Origin: Candidatus Brocadiaceae bacterium S225
Lineage (GTDB): Bacteria > Planctomycetota > Brocadiia > Brocadiales > Scalinduaceae
Length of the DNA stretch: 64,000 nucleotides
Assembly: GCA_007859995.1 (NCBI GenBank)
Contig: SMSL01000002.1
Span: 124,001 to 188,000 of the forward strand
Direction: 5' to 3'
Shown here piece after piece: positions 49,477 through 56,965 of the stretch (the first letter of the stretch is position 1; every line of letters starts with the position of its first letter). The notes beneath the pieces were generated by a model, which did no database searches, had not been told where the DNA came from, and saw only the letters and a program-made list of their open reading frames with translations. The position numbers and the translations under genes are program-made.

Positions 49477-50520
49477 TTAGTCTGCGTTTGAAAAACCGTT
49501 GTATAATACGGTTTTATAATTGAAAATCATACTTTCTAAATTTATAAGACTAGTATTTACCGCCATAACATATCCGTACTCCTGCCCATGCCTGATGTGC
49601 CTTTTGACATTACAGGCAATAGCGGAAAATATTAACTGCAATTGAGTGCGCACTTCATTCCGATGCCGTGATTTCCTAATGCCATGCCCTCGGACAAGCT
49701 CACTAACCATTGCCTCTGCACCAGCCCGAATAGAACATTTTTTCCGATATCCGGTGCCTTCCATATATTTGTGATGACGAGAAGCGCCTACATAAGATCT
49801 CTCATCAAGGGTTAGCGTTGCGACCTTTACACTAATCTTTACCGGACATCTCTCCTTCAACTGACATGCAGAACAAACGGCCGCAACAAAATGCACTATT
49901 ATGTTCCCTGTCTTAGTACTACGAGTCTGGTCTATAGGTTCTTGTTTTCTTCTATCTCAACTTTAAAATCCGCCACATCCAAGGGACGTTCTTCTGCATT
50001 ATACGCCTCGAAAGATCGGGAACGACCAGAACTCGGGCCTTCAAGTAATATCTCATTAGTCTGAGAATCCAGAACGGTTTGGCCATTGACAAAACCAGCA
50101 TCTGCATATTGCGCATCTGGTTTCATGTCGGATTCTTCTAAACGTTTATGTATCTGCGGAAGTTCTTTGGAGCCTGCGGTTGTTGACGGCGTCGTTTCTA
50201 CATCGGTGATAAATTGTGTTTTGTCGCTTTCTTCACAGCTTTCAGTTATAAATCCTTTTTGACCGCAAACTTTTTGTTTCCCTTTTCTGATATAACGAGC
50301 ATCGGTGTTGTGAGGGGTAGATATTATTTTTTCACCATTTGGTTTCTCACGTATGACAATCTCCATCTTTCCGCCATCCGTACCTTCTGCGGTTTCACAT
50401 TGCTGATCAAATATTTTTACCAATGTTTTAAAGCTTTCATAATGCTTGACCTGGTTATGGTTGATAAATGTTTCATATAAATAAATACATATCCTTTGCC
50501 ATAACCTTTATTTGCCGTCG
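49477..50520 (-). pseudogene. Broken IS1182-type transposase
   Basis: Two reading frames make up one decayed DDE transposase. The 5' part (ending 49932) has YESFKTLVKIFDQQC, HNTDARYIRKGKQKVCGQ and YADAGFVNGQTVLDSQTNE. The 3' part (49477-49896) has SACQLKERCPV, the HHKYMEGTGYRKKCSIRAGAEAMV segment and CNVKRHIRHG. These are in different frames, and the N-terminal third is missing or frameshifted around 50503-50520. The element ends are not clear. It is an inactive insertion remnant. Confidence 0.75.
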
Positions 50521-50758: not shown

Positions 50759-51553
50759 TTATAACATAACTAAACTTGCTGCCATTACCATCATTCCTAA
50801 GATTATTCCGATGATGACGGTATGGCTGTGGCCGTAACGGTGAACCATTGGGAGCAATTCATCCACTGAGACATAGATCATAATTCCTGCGACAAATGCC
50901 AGCAACCCGGCTAATAAACCAGGTGACAGAAAATGCCTTAAAAAGGCATAGCCTACCAGTGCGCCGAGCGGTTCTGACAAACCTGAAATCGCAGAGAAGA
51001 AAAAAACTTTGTTTCTGTTTCCGGTTGCGTAGAAGATCGGCATTGAGACGGAGATGCCTTCGGGTATGTTATGGATCGCTATTGCTATTGCGATGAGGAC
51101 ACCAAGTCTTATGTCAGACAAAGCGGCTCCGAATGTTGCCAGCCCTTCGGGGAAATTATGTATTCCTATTGCCAATGCCGTCATCATTGATGCGCGAAGC
51201 AGTTTCTTATCCTGGAGTGTTTTTTTGTGCGGATTCTGCAGGTTGTTGAAGTGGTCAGGATTTTCTGATTCCGGGATTAAAAAATCAATTATTCCGATGA
51301 AAAACATGCCTATGAAAAATACCACGACCGCTTTTAGTTGGCCTAATGTTTGTATGGCACTTGTAAGCAGTTCCATAAATGAGACGTATATCATCGTACC
51401 TGCGGAGAAGCCAAGAGAAAAGGTCAGGTAGCTTAAGCGAGGTTCTTTGATGAAATAGGCAATTGCAGCGCCGATCATCGTTGCAGAACCGGCGAGGGTT
51501 GTCAGCAATAATGCAATTTTAATATTAGCAGAGGTATCCACATCAAGCTCCAT
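50759..51553 (-). CDS. zupT: ZIP-family divalent metal transporter
   Basis: A 264-aa membrane protein with about eight hydrophobic segments. The paired metal-binding motifs HNFPEG (in helix 4) and HNIPEG (in helix 5) are the ZIP/ZupT hallmarks. A His/polar loop lies between helices 3 and 4. Likely imports zinc, iron or other divalent cations into the cytoplasm. Which metal cannot be told from the sequence. It stands alone, with a long non-coding region upstream. Confidence 0.92.
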   Translation of the reverse strand: MELDVDTSANIKIALLLTTLAGSATMIGAAIAYFIKEPRLSYLTFSLGFSAGTMIYVSFMELLTSAIQTLGQLKAVVVFFIGMFFIGIIDFLIPESENPDHFNNLQNPHKKTLQDKKLLRASMMTALAIGIHNFPEGLATFGAALSDIRLGVLIAIAIAIHNIPEGISVSMPIFYATGNRNKVFFFSAISGLSEPLGALVGYAFLRHFLSPGLLAGLLAFVAGIMIYVSVDELLPMVHRYGHSHTVIIGIILGMMVMAASLVML

Positions 51554-52195
51554 TTATTCGATATCAGTTTACTCTTGTCCAAGATAAAGTTTTTTTGAAA
51601 AATAAATAAAAAATATCTCCCGCTTTTCGAAAGGGTGTTCCATACACCAGAAACAGCCTCCCGCAAAAGTTGCTTTCTCATATTTAGTTCCAGCAAACAG
51701 ACTGAATGGCATAAAAAAAATAAAACAAGGAAAGAAAGGAAATGTATATTATATTTTCCTGACATAATTCACCTCCATCGATTAAGTGTATATTATCTAA
51801 TCTGTCTCTCCATTGTCCTATTAAAAAAAGGGTTTTTTTAATAAATATCTCTAAAACTAAAAACCTCCTTTGCATAACAGTTGCAAAGAACGCTGAGAGA
51901 ACAAAATTAGAGTTGTTTTTTTGGAGTGCAGTAACACGGTTACTGCTTTATTACGCATCATCACGCCTGTCTGCCTCGGGCAGGGATGATGCACTATAAA
52001 TTTATGCATAGGACGTTCAATGTTGATAACACTTCGACTCCGCTCAGAAGATATGGATGACTCCTTTCTTAAAATTAGAACTAATAAATGGTCAACTTTT
52101 AATTCTAATAATAAAAGGAAGGACTGTCATCCATATCTTCTGGATAGATTCTGAACTAAATACAGGGCCTTCTGTTTCAGAATTTAATAGTTTCA
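51554..52195. other. Non-coding palindrome-rich stretch
   Basis: No convincing gene. It contains three clear inverted structures: GCAGTAA/TTACTGC at 51928-51946, GCATCATC/GATGATGC at 51955-51992, and a 16-bp arm palindrome at 52046-52141. A CTTCGACTCCGCTCAG string just before the last is common in dispersed repeats. This gap is upstream of the ZIP gene on the minus strand, so its first part should hold that promoter. Confidence 0.5.
52046..52141. repeat. Long imperfect palindrome
   Basis: AGAAGATATGGATGAC at 52046-52061 is the exact reverse complement of 52126-52141. The sequence between continues as an imperfect inverted repeat, so the whole 96 bases could fold back on themselves. It resembles a MITE-like or decayed insertion element, distinct from the 138-bp element that follows. 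Confidence 0.6.
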
Positions 52196-52333
52196 CCTAA
52201 ATTGAGCGATTTTATTTCATATACTGTAGTAGCCGCCCGCCTAAGTGGGCGTTCGCTCTCATCCGGTGGGTGCATGTGAATTTCACGTAAGTTACCCCTA
52301 AAGGACGCGGCTACTTAAATCGTTCAATTTAGG
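52196..52333. mobile_element. MITE-like element, copy 1
   Basis: 138 bases bounded by terminal inverted repeats: CCTAAATTGAGCGATTTTA at the left matches the complement of the right end at 16 of 19 positions. It is flanked by an exact 5-bp target duplication, TTTCA (52191-52195 and 52334-52338). Inside are a second inverted pair (AGTAGCCGC...GCGGCTACT) and a hairpin (CGCCCG...TGGGCG). There is no open frame, so it would need a transposase elsewhere. Copy 2 is at 55117-55257. Confidence 0.85.
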
Positions 52334-52602
52334 TTTCAATAACTTCGCAACATTAGAGATCTCGCAACAATACTGAATCAAGTTCATCACAGGATTCTGG
52401 ATGACAATTGCGACACAGTCTGTTAGCCACTAAGAAAACCCTTTGCCGATAGTGACGGCGGCAGCATATTTTACGGCAGTGGGGTTAGATGCGCAAGCGA
52501 AGCTAAAGTTGATGGCGGGCTATGTCTTCAAGGCAGCCAAACGGCTCTTTGGTAGAGCATCGCCTTAAAAAAAATTTGGGGAAGTCCTTGGGCATTTAGC
52601 CC

Positions 52603-52630
52603 TTGACAAATTGAAACATTTATGTAAATG
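52603..52630 (+). promoter_or_regulatory. Candidate promoter of the c-di-GMP riboswitch leader
   Basis: TTGACA at 52603-52608 is a perfect -35 element. TAAATG at 52625-52630 is a fair -10 with a 16-base spacer. Transcription would start about 30 bases before the riboswitch. Confidence 0.45.
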
Positions 52631-52662
52631 TACATCTAAGGTGTTAATGGCCTCACAATAAA

Positions 52663-52782
52663 TCTTGATAAAGGCAAACTCTGGGTGACTAGGGGGCGCA
52701 AAGTAAAGGGTCTTTGAAGGTATACAGGCGTGTGTTGCGAATATGAAGAGTGTCCCTGCCGTCTGTAAACAGTCCAGCAAGA
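52663..52782 (+). ncRNA. Cyclic di-GMP-I (GEMM-I) riboswitch
   Basis: The core fits the GEMM-I pattern: GATAAAGGCAAAC, then a stem CTCTGG/CTAGGG capped by the GNRA loop GTGA (52679-52694), then GCGCAAAG (52696-52703), GGGTCT at the start of the third helix and TGCCG near its end. TCTTG (52663-52667) pairs with CAAGA (52778-52782) to close P1. A perfect terminator begins four bases later. The GEMM-I class binds cyclic di-GMP; some members respond to cyclic AMP-GMP, and I cannot say which applies. The next gene on this strand is the STN protein at 53300. Confidence 0.82.
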
Positions 52783-52785
52783 GAC

Positions 52786-52828
52786 AGCCTTACTGCCAAA
52801 AGATATTTTTGGCAGTAAGGCTTTTTTT
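52786..52828 (+). terminator. Intrinsic terminator after the riboswitch
   Basis: A 16-bp perfect stem, AGCCTTACTGCCAAAA with its complement, is followed by seven T's. It is one of the clearest terminators in the window. It starts four bases after the aptamer P1 stem, so the aptamer probably decides whether transcription passes it. Confidence 0.9.
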
Positions 52829-52909
52829 ATTGTATCAGCACGCTAGTTTAAAACTATGCACTTTCTGTGCAAGGCTTTCAGCTGGTTTTCAAAAAATTTA
52901 TTGACAATC

Positions 52910-53032
52910 GGTGAACAAAGAACGTACGCGGAAGCTATACTACTTTAAGTTACAGTAGATTGTTCACCAGAATAAAAAGGACTTTTAGTCCGCTTTTTTT
53001 GAACCTCTGGACTTTCAGTCCAGGGTGGTTCA
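52910..53032 (+). other. Second structured leader with terminator-like hairpins
   Basis: GGTGAACAA (52910-52918) pairs exactly with TTGTTCACC (52960-52968), enclosing a 41-base loop with inner pairs (CTAC...GTAG). A hairpin GGACTTTTAGTCC (52979-52991) followed by GC and seven T's is a second intrinsic terminator. A nested hairpin TGAACC...GGTTCA with CTGGACTTTCAGTCCAG inside lies at 53000-53032. The order resembles aptamer plus terminator, but I do not recognise the class. Confidence 0.5.
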
Positions 53033-53299
53033 GTTTCAGGATATTTACTTAGGTTTGCTTACTTAGAGGCAACCCTTGAAGTGGCACTATTCTCCATGTG
53101 GTTAGCATTCATGTGCCCAACACACGGAGAACAGGTTTTGACGAGTGGTCCACGCAGCAGAGAGGTTTTAACCCTCACAATCACTGTGGTTGCGTTAATC
53201 ATTTGTATTATAATTAATACATTTTTTATTTAAATGTAATCTTAGTTAATCAATAATATAAATACTATTAATATTCTATACCAAAGAGGGAGGGATAAG
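53033..53299. other. Leader region before the STN gene
   Basis: About 265 bases with no gene. A stretch at 53090-53135 has an inverted TTCTCCATGTG/CACACGGAGAA pair. Before the gene the sequence becomes very AT-rich, with TATAAT-like hexamers that could serve as a local promoter. Confidence 0.4.
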
Positions 53300-53956
53300 A
53301 TGGTCTCATTTTTAACTCTTAAAAAGGCTTTGATTATCTGCTTTATATTTGTTTCTGCAGTGTTTTTATTCCATAAAGGCGTTTCTTTGGCGGGAGAGAA
53401 GAATCCATCACCAGGTAAGGAATTTTCAGGTGTCGATTTTAAAAATGGTCTATTGAAAATATCAGTAGACAAACAAAGTTTTAAAAAGGTTATGAGTGAG
53501 ATAGCGAAAAAAGCTGAGATAAAGATTTTTATTTATTTTGCTGCTGAGGAGGAACTAACTATAGATTTTGATTATCTCCCCTTGGAAAAGGGACTAGTTA
53601 AGCTTCTAAGAGGAAGAAACTACGCCTTCTGTCGTTCTCGGGAAGACCAACAGCCTGACAGACTAACGAGTGTAACGGTCTTTAGTAGAGAAGAAGGTGT
53701 ATCTGTGGCAATGAAGGATGGCCAGCAGCAGAGACTGGAAGAGATTCTACAGCGCAATTTTATAAACGAATTGGATATGAGACAAAAAATTGACGAAGCT
53801 ATGGAGAAGGTAAAGGAGGCTGGCATCTCTAAAGAGATAGAAATGGTCAAAGGTGAAATTGGACAAGATTTTCTCCTTGATGAGAAAAACGTGGCAACCA
53901 TTGTAGAAAAAATAAACATGGCTTTGGATGGAATAACGGCAGGTGGAAGCCTTTAA
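53300..53956 (+). CDS. Secreted protein with STN (secretin/TonB short) domain
   Basis: A 218-aa exported protein. The N-terminal segment (residues 7-31) is a hydrophobic signal that ends in SLAGEK. Residues about 50-112 match the STN fold of secretins and TonB receptors (LKISVDKQSFKKVMSEIAKK and LTIDFDYLPLEKGLVKLL). The rest is helical and charged, without a channel domain. GAGGGAGGG is an excellent ribosome binding site. It may help assemble or gate an envelope complex, and lies downstream of the c-di-GMP riboswitch. Confidence 0.65.
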   Translation: MVSFLTLKKALIICFIFVSAVFLFHKGVSLAGEKNPSPGKEFSGVDFKNGLLKISVDKQSFKKVMSEIAKKAEIKIFIYFAAEEELTIDFDYLPLEKGLVKLLRGRNYAFCRSREDQQPDRLTSVTVFSREEGVSVAMKDGQQQRLEEILQRNFINELDMRQKIDEAMEKVKEAGISKEIEMVKGEIGQDFLLDEKNVATIVEKINMALDGITAGGSL

Positions 53957-54435
53957 TACAAAATAGAATATAAAATCTAAAGGTAGGATTATGTTGAAGC
54001 TGAGTAAGCAAGTTTTGAATAATGAATTATCTTAATCAAACTAAAAAGGTTTAAATTTGCTATTTTAAGGAGGCCGGTTGTGAAAAGAGGTTATAGTTGA
54101 TGTGTAGTAGTAGGAAGTATTTAAATTTCTAAAACGTATTTATTTAAGGAGGTAATCACAGTATGAAAAAGCTACAAAACAGTATCAAAAAAGAGGGGGG
54201 GGGGGGTAAAGCGAAAAAAGTTTAAACTGGGGTATGCATTTGTTTCCTGTAGCTAAATCGCAAGCAATTGAAATTTAATGAGATAAGCTCCGTATAATCG
54301 GTACCTTATTAAATTGTACGGGAAGCAAGTGCATTCCTCCACAATTTAATATACAATGTTAATAAGCATGTACGTTTGTAGTTCTTATTTTTTTAGTTTT
54401 GTTACTATAACAATGAAAGAAAGGAAGAAAATCAA
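53957..54435. other. Short reading frames with strong starts, and a G12 tract
   Basis: 480 bases with no normal gene, but with three start sites preceded by good Shine-Dalgarno sequences: ATG 53991 (14 codons), GTG near 54080 (six codons) and ATG 54163 (AAGGAGG upstream, 20 codons). The third runs into 12 consecutive G's at 54195-54206. With one G fewer, that frame would continue for ten more residues (KFKLGYAFVSCS). An inverted repeat ATTAAATTGT/ACAATTTAAT (54308-54350) follows. Decayed genes or leader peptides are both possible. Confidence 0.5.
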
Positions 54436-55044
54436 ATGAAAAACTTATTAAAACTTAGTATTATGTTGGCCGCTCTGCTTGTTTTTACAGGAACAAATAC
54501 CGTTATTGCCCAAGAAGCTGTGGTAAGCTCTAATATAGAAGCTGGGGTAAGCTCTAATATATCAGCTAGCGCTCTCCCAGGTAATATAAATTTTGATCCG
54601 CCATCTCTTTTTGCCCAAACACTCCCTCTGCAAACCTATATGAATAACAATACAAATGCAGTTTTTGTTGGTGGTAACGGAGCAGTGTTAAGCGAAAATA
54701 GTAACTTTGGAGTAACTGGCCATAGCTCTCCTAATTTCTTAGCGTACAATCCAAGTACACAAAATAGCGATGGCAGTATTCCGGCCTTACCAGCAATAAT
54801 CTACTTTCCCAATCCAGTCAACAATGTTAGTATGCTTGCAGGAGCCGGCTCCACAACTGGCACCGTTATATTGGCCGCGCTTGACGCTAGTTTCACTGTT
54901 GTCGCTGTTGATGTAAAAGCAATTACTCCAGCGATGCAGCTTTTATCTGTAGCCTGGAATCCAGGAATTCAAGCAGTAGTTGTTGTGGGTAACTTTACTA
55001 GTGCGAATAAATGGATGGTTCTGGACAATTTGAGATTTCAATAA
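54436..55044 (+). CDS. Secreted protein, truncated paralogue of the metalloprotease N-domain
   Basis: A 202-aa exported protein with a signal peptide (1-25, ending VIAQ). The body is almost identical to the first 202 residues of the neighbouring protein at 55289, including NPVNNVSMLAGAGSTTGTV. A TAA follows LRFQ, where the paralogue continues with Asp-Gly-Gly. It therefore lacks the calcium repeats and protease. The fold looks like a beta-rich surface or binding domain. It could be functional on its own or be the debris of a tandem duplication. Confidence 0.7.
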   Translation: MKNLLKLSIMLAALLVFTGTNTVIAQEAVVSSNIEAGVSSNISASALPGNINFDPPSLFAQTLPLQTYMNNNTNAVFVGGNGAVLSENSNFGVTGHSSPNFLAYNPSTQNSDGSIPALPAIIYFPNPVNNVSMLAGAGSTTGTVILAALDASFTVVAVDVKAITPAMQLLSVAWNPGIQAVVVVGNFTSANKWMVLDNLRFQ

Positions 55045-55083
55045 GAAAATCGGATAAAACTTGTATACTATTTTATCTCTGTA

Positions 55084-55116
55084 GTAGTTCTTATCTTTTG
55101 AGTTTTGTTACTATAA
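55084..55116 (+). repeat. Duplicated promoter/leader segment
   Basis: These 33 bases (GTAGTTCTTAT...CTATAA) closely match 54378-54410, upstream of the truncated paralogue. In that copy CTATAA runs directly into CAATGAAAG. Here the MITE (55117-55257) intervenes, followed by TAAAA and CAATAAAAC. The first copy is therefore the empty site of the insertion. Confidence 0.8.
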
Positions 55117-55257
55117 TCTAAATTGAGCGATTTTATTTCCTATACTGTAGTAGCCGTAGGCTTTAGTCTGCGTTCGCTCTCATCAGATGGGTGCATGTGG
55201 ATTTCACGTAAGTTACGCAACCTAAAGGATGCGGCTACTTAAATCGCTCAATTCAGG
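55117..55257. mobile_element. MITE-like element, copy 2
   Basis: 141 bases, about 85% alike to the element at 52196-52333. It has the same terminal inverted repeats (CTAAATTGAGCGATTTTA...AAATCGCTCAATTCAGG). The flanking target duplication is TATAA/TAAAA (one mismatch). The hairpin here is CGTAGG/TCTGCG with loop CTTTAG: against copy 1, two pairs change on both sides (C-G to A-T and C-G to G-C), so pairing is preserved. It splits the leader of the metalloprotease gene. Confidence 0.85.
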
Positions 55258-55288
55258 TAAAACAATAAAACAAAGGGAAGGGAATCAA

Positions 55289-56965
55289 ATGAAAAACTTA
55301 TTAAAACTTAGTATTATGTTGGCCGCTCTGCTTGTTTTGACGGGAACAAATACTGTTATCGCCCAAGAAGCTGTGGTAAGCTCTAGTATAGAAGCTGGGG
55401 TAAGCGCTAATATATCAGCTAGCGCTCTACCAGGTAATATAAATGTTGATCCGCCACCTTATTTTGTCCAAACACTCCCGCTGCAAACCTATATGAATAA
55501 CAATACAAATGCGGTTTTTGTTGGTGGTAACGGCGCAGTGTTAAACGAAACTAGTAACTTTGGAGTAACTGGCCATAGCTCTCCTAATTTCTTAGCATAC
55601 AATCCAGGTGCACAAAATAGCGATGGCAGTATTCCGGCATTACCAGCAATAATCTACTTTCCCAATCCAGTCAACAATGTTAGTATGCTTGCAGGAGCCG
55701 GCTCCACAACTGGCACCGTTATATTGGCCGCGCTTGACGCTAGTTTCGCTGTTGTAGCTTTTGATGTAAAAACAATTACTCCAGCGATGCAGCTTTTATC
55801 TGTAACCTGGAATCCAGGAATTCAAGCAGTAGTTGTTGTGGGTAACTTTACTAGTGCGAATGAATGGATGGTTCTGGACAATTTGAGATTTCAAGATGGT
55901 GGATGCACGCTTGGAATTGACTCGGATAACGACCGTTTGGATGACTGCTACGAGACAAACACAGGTGTATATGTAAGTCCTACTGATACTGGGACAGATC
56001 CTTTAAATCCTGATACGGACGGTGATGGTATCAAAGACGGTGACGAAGTACTCGGAACACTTAGCAACCTTGATTTGCCTGGAATGGGGGCTAACCCTCT
56101 CCGAAAAGACATTTTTATTGAATATGATTGGTTTATAGATAGTCTTGATTGTGCTAACCACTCTCATCGACCCTCGGTAAATGCTGTAAATATGGTAGCA
56201 CAGGCATTTGCTAATTCTCCTGTATTAAACCCTGACGGGACAACGGGTATTACACTTCACAACGACCGTGGACAAGGAGGTCTCTTTACAGGCGGCAACC
56301 TGATCAATGACGCTGACGGGGTACTTACAGGAGGCGTAAACAGTCCGGAATTCATGTCACACAAAGCGGCCAACTTCGCTTCCAATCGGCATGGTTATTT
56401 TCACTATTGTATTTTACCTCACCGATACAATACAAACAGTAGCAGTTCAGGACAAGCAGAGTTGCCTGGAGACGACCTCATAGTTTCTCTGCAATGCTTC
56501 AACAGTGACACTAACGTTAGCCACACAATCATGCACGAATATGGCCACAACGCTAACATTCGCCATGGGGGTAACGTCAATTGCAACTATAAGCCAAACT
56601 ACAATTCTGTGATGAATTATAAGTACCAGTTTCCTGGTGTTGACAATAATTGTACACCTCCGGGAGATGGTGTCTTGAATTATTCTATTGGCGACCGTAT
56701 TGTTCTCAACGAAAATAATCTCAATGAGAACAACGGCATTTGTGGCGCTCCGCCTTGGGATTGGAATGGGAACACTATAATTGAAAATGGTGTAGCGTTT
56801 AATATAAATAGCCAGGACTCCGGCGACTGTGGTGGCACATTTACTACGCTTACCGATTATAATGATTGGGCAAATTTGAGCTTTACAGGCCTACAGGATG
56901 CTGACGGAGCGTTGCCTGTTCCACCTGAAATCATTGATTGTGATAACCCGGCGCCTGAGAACTAA
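55289..56965 (+). CDS. Secreted metzincin metalloprotease with calcium-binding repeats
   Basis: A 558-aa exported protein. After a signal peptide (1-25) comes the domain shared with the 202-aa neighbour. Residues 211-255 (DSDNDRLDDC and DPLNPDTDGDGIKDGDEV) are type-3 thrombospondin calcium repeats. The protease domain follows, with HEYGHNANIRH at 416-426 (ligands His416, His420, His426 and catalytic Glu417) and the Met-turn near Met442 (SVMNYKYQ). The start ATG 55289 has the same context as its paralogue; the frame open to 55229 lies partly inside the MITE. Its substrate and target are unknown. It probably acts outside the cell. Confidence 0.85.
   Translation: MKNLLKLSIMLAALLVLTGTNTVIAQEAVVSSSIEAGVSANISASALPGNINVDPPPYFVQTLPLQTYMNNNTNAVFVGGNGAVLNETSNFGVTGHSSPNFLAYNPGAQNSDGSIPALPAIIYFPNPVNNVSMLAGAGSTTGTVILAALDASFAVVAFDVKTITPAMQLLSVTWNPGIQAVVVVGNFTSANEWMVLDNLRFQDGGCTLGIDSDNDRLDDCYETNTGVYVSPTDTGTDPLNPDTDGDGIKDGDEVLGTLSNLDLPGMGANPLRKDIFIEYDWFIDSLDCANHSHRPSVNAVNMVAQAFANSPVLNPDGTTGITLHNDRGQGGLFTGGNLINDADGVLTGGVNSPEFMSHKAANFASNRHGYFHYCILPHRYNTNSSSSGQAELPGDDLIVSLQCFNSDTNVSHTIMHEYGHNANIRHGGNVNCNYKPNYNSVMNYKYQFPGVDNNCTPPGDGVLNYSIGDRIVLNENNLNENNGICGAPPWDWNGNTIIENGVAFNINSQDSGDCGGTFTTLTDYNDWANLSFTGLQDADGALPVPPEIIDCDNPAPEN

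Follow-up and report, generated by a model that had tools for sequence, protein, structure and literature searches.

An IS1380-type miniature element enclosing a REPIN in Candidatus Brocadiaceae bacterium S225, with hairpin tips that probably change as palindromic blocks

Results

The DNA analysed here (the window) is a stretch of 64,000 nucleotides from Candidatus Brocadiaceae bacterium S225, and it contains, between positions 52196 and 55257, two short elements that carry no gene. These elements are very probably non-autonomous miniature inverted-repeat transposable elements (MITEs) of the IS1380 family, whose cargo is a REPIN, that is, a pair of repetitive extragenic palindromic (REP) hairpins in inverted order, and in which the hairpin tips are swapped as blocks. 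The arrangement joins two unrelated mobile systems, DDE-type IS1380 ends and an HUH-type REPIN, in a documented chimera for which the autonomous partner of either system was identified. A literature search, conducted mostly without subscription papers, found no description of a REPIN enclosed by IS1380 ends, nor any report of this combination in Scalindua. What we regard as new is this enclosure, together with evidence that two-sided changes of REPIN hairpins can arise as blocks in place.

The two elements and their insertion sites

Copy 1 (52196-52333, plus strand, 138 bp) lies between two identical 5-bp target site duplications (TSDs), TTTCA at 52191-52195 and at 52334-52338. Copy 2 (55117-55257, plus strand, 141 bp) is flanked by TATAA (55112-55116) and, with one mismatch, by TAAAA (55258-55262). 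Lengths, positions and flanks are thus as the preliminary description of this DNA had given them. Copy 1 starts with the left terminal inverted repeat (TIR) CCTAAATTGAGCGATTT (52196-52212, plus strand), which equals the ends of the IS1380-family transposons of related genomes described below, and finishes with the right TIR on the minus strand (52317-52333); the TIRs in the window are about 17 bp long and 94% complementary. No open reading frame (ORF) of at least 80 amino acids was found within either copy, as expected of elements said to carry no gene. An ORF of 578 amino acids can be read from an ATG inside copy 2; its likely start, which it has in common with a neighbouring paralogue, is at 55289.

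This paralogue provides a natural empty site. The two tandem paralogues (54436-55044 and 55289-56965) have a common upstream sequence, and the element is present only before the second one, ending about 30 bp upstream of its start codon (55289). The same promoter region ahead of the first paralogue (54378-54435, plus strand) is without the element, and there GTTACTATAA runs directly into CAATGAAAG; at the filled site GTTACTATAA is followed by the element, by TAAAA and by CAATAAAAC. The length of the filled site with respect to the empty one agrees with a duplication of 5 bp for copy 2, and not with one of 3 bp. A 3-bp duplication with the TIR ACCTAAATT was considered, and is disfavoured by this length and by the tabulated TSDs of the family, which favour 5 bp.

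When the genome of the window was searched by BLAST with copy 1, 35 matches were obtained, 14 of which are full or partial copies, and matches were also present in 25 of 59 relatives. All sequences derive from draft metagenome-assembled genomes (MAGs). Among 76 full copies from the own and related genomes, picked by BLAST similarity, 46 have a perfect 5-bp duplication, as compared to a mean of 2.4 expected from shuffled right flanks, and a further 16 have one mismatch. The perfect duplications follow the pattern T-NNN-A, the first base being T in 44 and the last base A in 45. An exact scan of named genomes for the junction of TIR and hairpin gave matches in Candidatus Scalindua (S. sediminis, S. 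rubra, S. arabica and others) and, outside Scalindua, in other Planctomycetota bins and two deltaproteobacterial MAGs. Judging from kinship, the window itself probably belongs to a species of Scalindua, a group of anammox bacteria. The window elements, being short, non-coding, bounded by TIRs and target duplications and present in many copies, belong to a genuine MITE family and are more than debris; the family proposed earlier from two copies gained its further members in this search. Besides, a distinct MITE subfamily was seen in MAGs assigned to Desulfobacterales and Deltaproteobacteria (L126, L128, L132, L139), reflecting either horizontal transfer or mis-binning.

The position of copy 2 close to a start codon and the strong hairpins of both copies would also suit fixed regulatory leaders or terminators that do not move. 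The target duplications, the empty site and the occurrence of copies at unrelated places refute this as a general account, and we consider it scarcely credible; local effects on the neighbouring gene may occur.

IS1380 transposons with the same ends

The ends and the duplication resemble those of ISEcp1, an IS1380 element whose ends are CCTAGATTCTACGT and CCTAAATTCCACGT and whose 5-bp duplication reads TCATA (PMC7864471). For this reason, the IS1380 transposase family (PF13701) was searched in the genomes. Transposons of this family with MITE-like ends and 5-bp duplications were found in four relatives. The first of these (G010), a sister species, contains five full-length transposase copies; three of the loci were read and measure 1713-1714 bp, with an intact transposase of 464 amino acids, ends CCTAAATTGAGCGATTT and TSDs TATAA and TTTAA. 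The element of G001 has a broken frame and the TSD TTATA, and that of G019 has CCTAAATTGAGCGATT at both ends, one in-frame stop and the TSD TAATA. G021 carries a variant TIR (ends CCTAAATTAGGCG and CCTAAATCAGGCG, TSD AATTA). The transposase protein scores 232 bits against NCBIfam NF033539, whose cut-off is 180. The full-length transposon with the same ends that the preliminary description had proposed to look for is therefore at hand in G010, G001 and G019, and in G021 with the variant TIR.

The MITEs have in common with the IS1380 family of the ISEcp1 type, and with MITEs derived from it, the TIR start CCTAAATT, the AT-rich 5-bp target duplication and the existence of full-length elements that bear these ends and encode an IS1380 transposase, so that IS1380-type ends and a duplication within the 4-5 bp range are both present. 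They differ from these known elements in that the resemblance to the transposon, judged by eye, is limited to about 17 bp of the ends, and that the interior is a REPIN and not a deleted transposase gene.

A REPIN in the interior and its REP-associated transposase

Inside the element, a hairpin beginning with GTAGCCG is followed by a spacer that contains short palindromes and then by another hairpin, the reverse complement of which likewise begins GTAGCCGC. In copy 1 the left hairpin (52229-52251, plus strand; tip 52235-52250) has a tip of the class CCGCC/GGCGG, and the right one (52295-52314, minus strand) has lost part of its tip. In copy 2 the left hairpin (55150-55172, plus strand) has a tip of the class AGGC/GCCT, and the right hairpin (55216-55238) reads GTAGCCGCATCCTTTAGGTTGCG on the minus strand. 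From its sequence, this interior is a REPIN composed of two GTAG-tagged REP hairpins in inverted order.

The same hairpins exist without the transposon ends. In a second family of the same order (f2), four genomes (G017, G020, G023, G029) contain 75-120 of them each, and in these genomes the TIR-REP junction pattern was found zero times. Such junctions are confined to the family of the window (f1), with 10 in the own genome and 33 in S. sediminis; a REPIN that lacks TIRs is located in the own genome too, at C5:180865. At one conserved locus of f2, a gene for a REP-associated tyrosine transposase (RAYT; NF047646; L240-L242) has these REPs on both sides. Homologues 62-63% identical and likewise flanked by REPs are present in S. 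sediminis and G003 (L243, L244), and a remnant is present in S. rubra. An inverted pair of GTAG hairpins and, in f2 and two Scalindua relatives, a cognate RAYT flanked by REPs are thus both found. In the own genome, no cognate RAYT flanked by these REPs was found, the best homologue being 36% identical, and the sole GTAGCCGC match adjoining its Y1 transposase loci is a full MITE that lies some 760 bp away from a truncated gene. This best own REP transposase (L046 1180-1950, C5:43153 region; NF047646, 96.7 bits) has at its flanks a GTAG palindrome of another kind (GTAGGG...), which belongs to another REP family.

The likeness to REPINs or bacterial interspersed mosaic elements and to GTAG REPs with their RAYTs (PMC3116915, PMC3733652) comprises the GTAG foot, the short inverted hairpin pair, the cognate REP_Tyr_transpos gene flanked by REPs, and the two-sided stem changes, which were reported for REPINs in 2011 (PMC3116915). 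The difference is that here the hairpin pair lies inside IS1380 ends with target duplications, and that the tips are exchanged as blocks.

Paired changes in the hairpins

Both window elements fold strongly as single strands (z of -5.7 and -5.1 with respect to dinucleotide shuffles). The two-sided differences between them that had been noticed at the outset, C-G to A-T and C-G to G-C, are real, and they are adjoined by a change from C-G to T-G. In an alignment of 40 copies, 94.7% of the cells pair, and 33 cells are changed on both sides, as compared to 7.2 in shuffles (0 of 500 shuffles reached 33). When the partners were slid by 1-3 columns as a control, 2-11 two-sided cells were counted. The covariation is thus not random across copies. 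However, it is unevenly placed, since 24 of the 33 two-sided cells fall in the seven pairs of the left hairpin tip. Nearly all joint pair states are either (A-T, G-C, T-A), seen in 34 copies, or (C-G, C-G, C-G), seen in 9, and fully paired intermediates are few. A weakly resolved tree, made from the element with its tip left out, accounts for the tip class hardly better than for shuffled labels: 10 changes are required, as compared to an average of 12.0 after shuffling, and 40 of 500 shuffles were as low.

The history of copy 1 bears directly on how such changes arise. Copy 1 and its paralogue on contig C4 (C4:22892-23029) both lie inside one segmental duplication with 93% identity (contigs C2 and C4), and hence represent the same insertion. 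The tip nevertheless differs at 7 of 16 bases, as compared to 2 of 121 aligned bases in the remaining element (p=2.4e-6, hypergeometric), and each of the two tips is a palindrome. Here hairpin arms have changed together inside one insertion, which supplies natural pairs for the study of the process.

The preliminary description had taken the paired differences to mean that the internal pairing is under constraint and that the folded RNA or DNA matters. A folded RNA or DNA cruciform made by the element, with its base pairs kept singly by selection, would account for the significant pairing and covariation, for the strong folding, for T-G intermediates at one left-hairpin pair and for the excess of G-T over A-C in the left hairpin (17 vs. 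8) and in the foot (26 vs. 12). However, this excess, which was examined as a possible sign of selection on RNA, is reversed in the right hairpin, in the TIR and in the spacer palindrome, and it counts the same T column twice. Moreover, no Rfam family matches either window element at E<=1, and most two-sided changes are linked blocks, which arise within one insertion too and so cannot be read as selection for RNA structure. Selection on single base pairs therefore appears quite improbable: the paired changes themselves are significant and the elements are more than debris, while a constraint acting pair by pair is not established. Selection for the hairpin at the DNA level, for example through recognition by the REP transposase, may still operate. 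These data also call for caution in covariation-based RNA discovery in repeats.

Exchange of hairpin tips as blocks

The same kind of change was seen at other places. Just 3' of the REP transposase gene, an orthologous site holds a REP whose tip is of the CCGCC class in S. sediminis and of the AGGC class in both G003 and S. rubra. In many copies of S. sediminis, the right tip AACC..GGTT is replaced by CCCC-CATAGCTTCCTTGCGTAAGCTAGGAATG-GGGG. This 28-nt tip has 39 occurrences in S. sediminis, 32 of them without mismatch. Its hosts are MITEs that have 15 different spacers between them, and it was also seen at 11 sites outside the MITEs, one of which is in S. rubra; most of these sites, at least ten, are unrelated palindromes. 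MITEs with the same body that are capped or uncapped by it differ at the tip. A left-hairpin module GTGCCTGAGGCAGATTCGCCTTGGCGAACTTTTATCTGCG and a right-foot insert CCCGCCCGTACCGAACGGTACGTTCGGGCGGG, with its variants, also recur in different bodies, and further inserts of about 24-27 nt lie within the tips of four loci (L127, L130, L131, L209). Judging from these comparisons, distal parts of REP hairpins are shown to be exchanged as whole palindromic blocks, in the MITEs and in one REP outside a MITE.

In two copies (L189 and L196), the 3' flank of the left hairpin matches the 5' foot as a perfect complement at 8 additional bases (8 of 8), as compared to mostly 2-4 in the other copies. By this pattern, both are footprints of template switching, a replication process that yields multi-base compensatory changes in single events (PMC8794818). 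As in the hairpin mutations described for this process, both arms are altered by one event and quasi-palindromes are made perfect (L189, L196). Unlike them, the tip is here often swapped for a palindrome found elsewhere in the genome, so that the donor lies outside the hairpin.

Two other processes could move the tips. Ordinary gene conversion by homologous recombination would spread tip variants among MITE copies and require no special hairpin process, and it agrees with the flanks beside the right-hand tip, which are common to copies of one genome, and with several tip classes that copies have in common. However, the S. sediminis tip also tops palindromes whose only homology with the MITE lies in C/G runs, the REP next to the transposase gene switched its tip although its flanks are unique, and spacer differences 10-15 nt away from the tip were not co-transferred. 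For these reasons, we think it unlikely that gene conversion is the main process. The REP transposase (HUH, Y1) might itself swap or paste hairpins at GTAG feet, considering that the same REPs stand on both sides of its gene in two families and that REPs are thought to be mobilised by RAYT-type enzymes (PMC3116915, PMC8266576). Against this, the exchange junctions lie above the GTAG foot, the 28-nt tip also sits on palindromes without GTAG, and the divergent homologue of the own genome is flanked by other palindromes; this explanation is improbable.

Discussion

We therefore favour template switching as the process that would mainly drive the exchange. An inverted pair of GTAG REP hairpins came to be enclosed by 17-bp IS1380 transposon ends, as the sequence of the element shows. 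The IS1380 transposase would then move the MITE in trans into AT-rich T-NNN-A targets, leaving 5-bp duplications, a step for which the support is strong. The distal parts of the REP hairpins are swapped as palindromic blocks, the foot and the flanks staying unchanged. In this process, replication would stall at the hairpin, and the new strand would copy the tip of another hairpin or the opposite arm of its own and then return. Since the donor tip is palindromic, both arms change together and the result resembles covariation. No host function would be required, and the DNA hairpin, rather than RNA, would most likely be the unit acted on.

Several points weigh against this reading. No IS1380 transposase above the family cut-off was found in the genome of the window, which is 79% complete, so that present mobility there is unproven; nor was an adjacent transposase recognised among the listed ORFs at its solo TIRs. 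The tree was built from 125 columns and has weak resolution, although its starred branches alone force 4 changes of tip class; the tip class was counted by a simple rule of our own. Some single pairs show stepwise T-G intermediates, so that ordinary compensation may explain some of the covariation. Because right-hand flanks are common to MITE copies of one genome, exchange of tips within the MITEs could partly be ordinary gene conversion. The draft state of the MAGs applies throughout.

More tentatively, the tips may be mobile units in their own right, namely palindromic modules of about 12-40 nt that spread in a genome as they replace or enter the apex of any DNA hairpin, with MITEs and REPs as landing pads. 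If so, the 28-nt tip of S. sediminis would illustrate this most clearly. The cyanobacterial small dispersed repeats, very small mobile sequences cited in PMC2884548 and PMC3116915, are similar in being tens of bases long, dispersed and without a gene of their own. The question of how REP hairpins alter both arms is now directly testable.

Neighbourhood of the elements

The segment around copy 1 (50759-52440), which contains a ZIP transporter gene, has a duplicate of about 93% identity on contig C4. The window copy has a long stem-loop at 52045-52142, where the C4 copy has unrelated sequence instead; a GTAAC hairpin near it has another palindrome in its loop in the C4 copy. Beside copy 1, the sequence at 52359-52426 (TTAGAGATC ... 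GGATGACAATTG) resembles flanks of some of the S. sediminis palindromes that bear the 28-nt tip, which suggests another dispersed repeat with a variable centre. On the minus strand, broken fragments of a DDE transposase (PF13751) extend over 49477-50423. About 480 nt upstream of the ORF at 53300-53956, a match resembling a c-di-GMP-I-GGC riboswitch (52664-52830; 56.7 bits, slightly below the gathering score of 59) overlaps a strong hairpin with a T run. The tandem paralogues at 54436-56965 encode exported-looking proteins with a common N-terminal part, the second of which has 558 amino acids and weak metallopeptidase matches.

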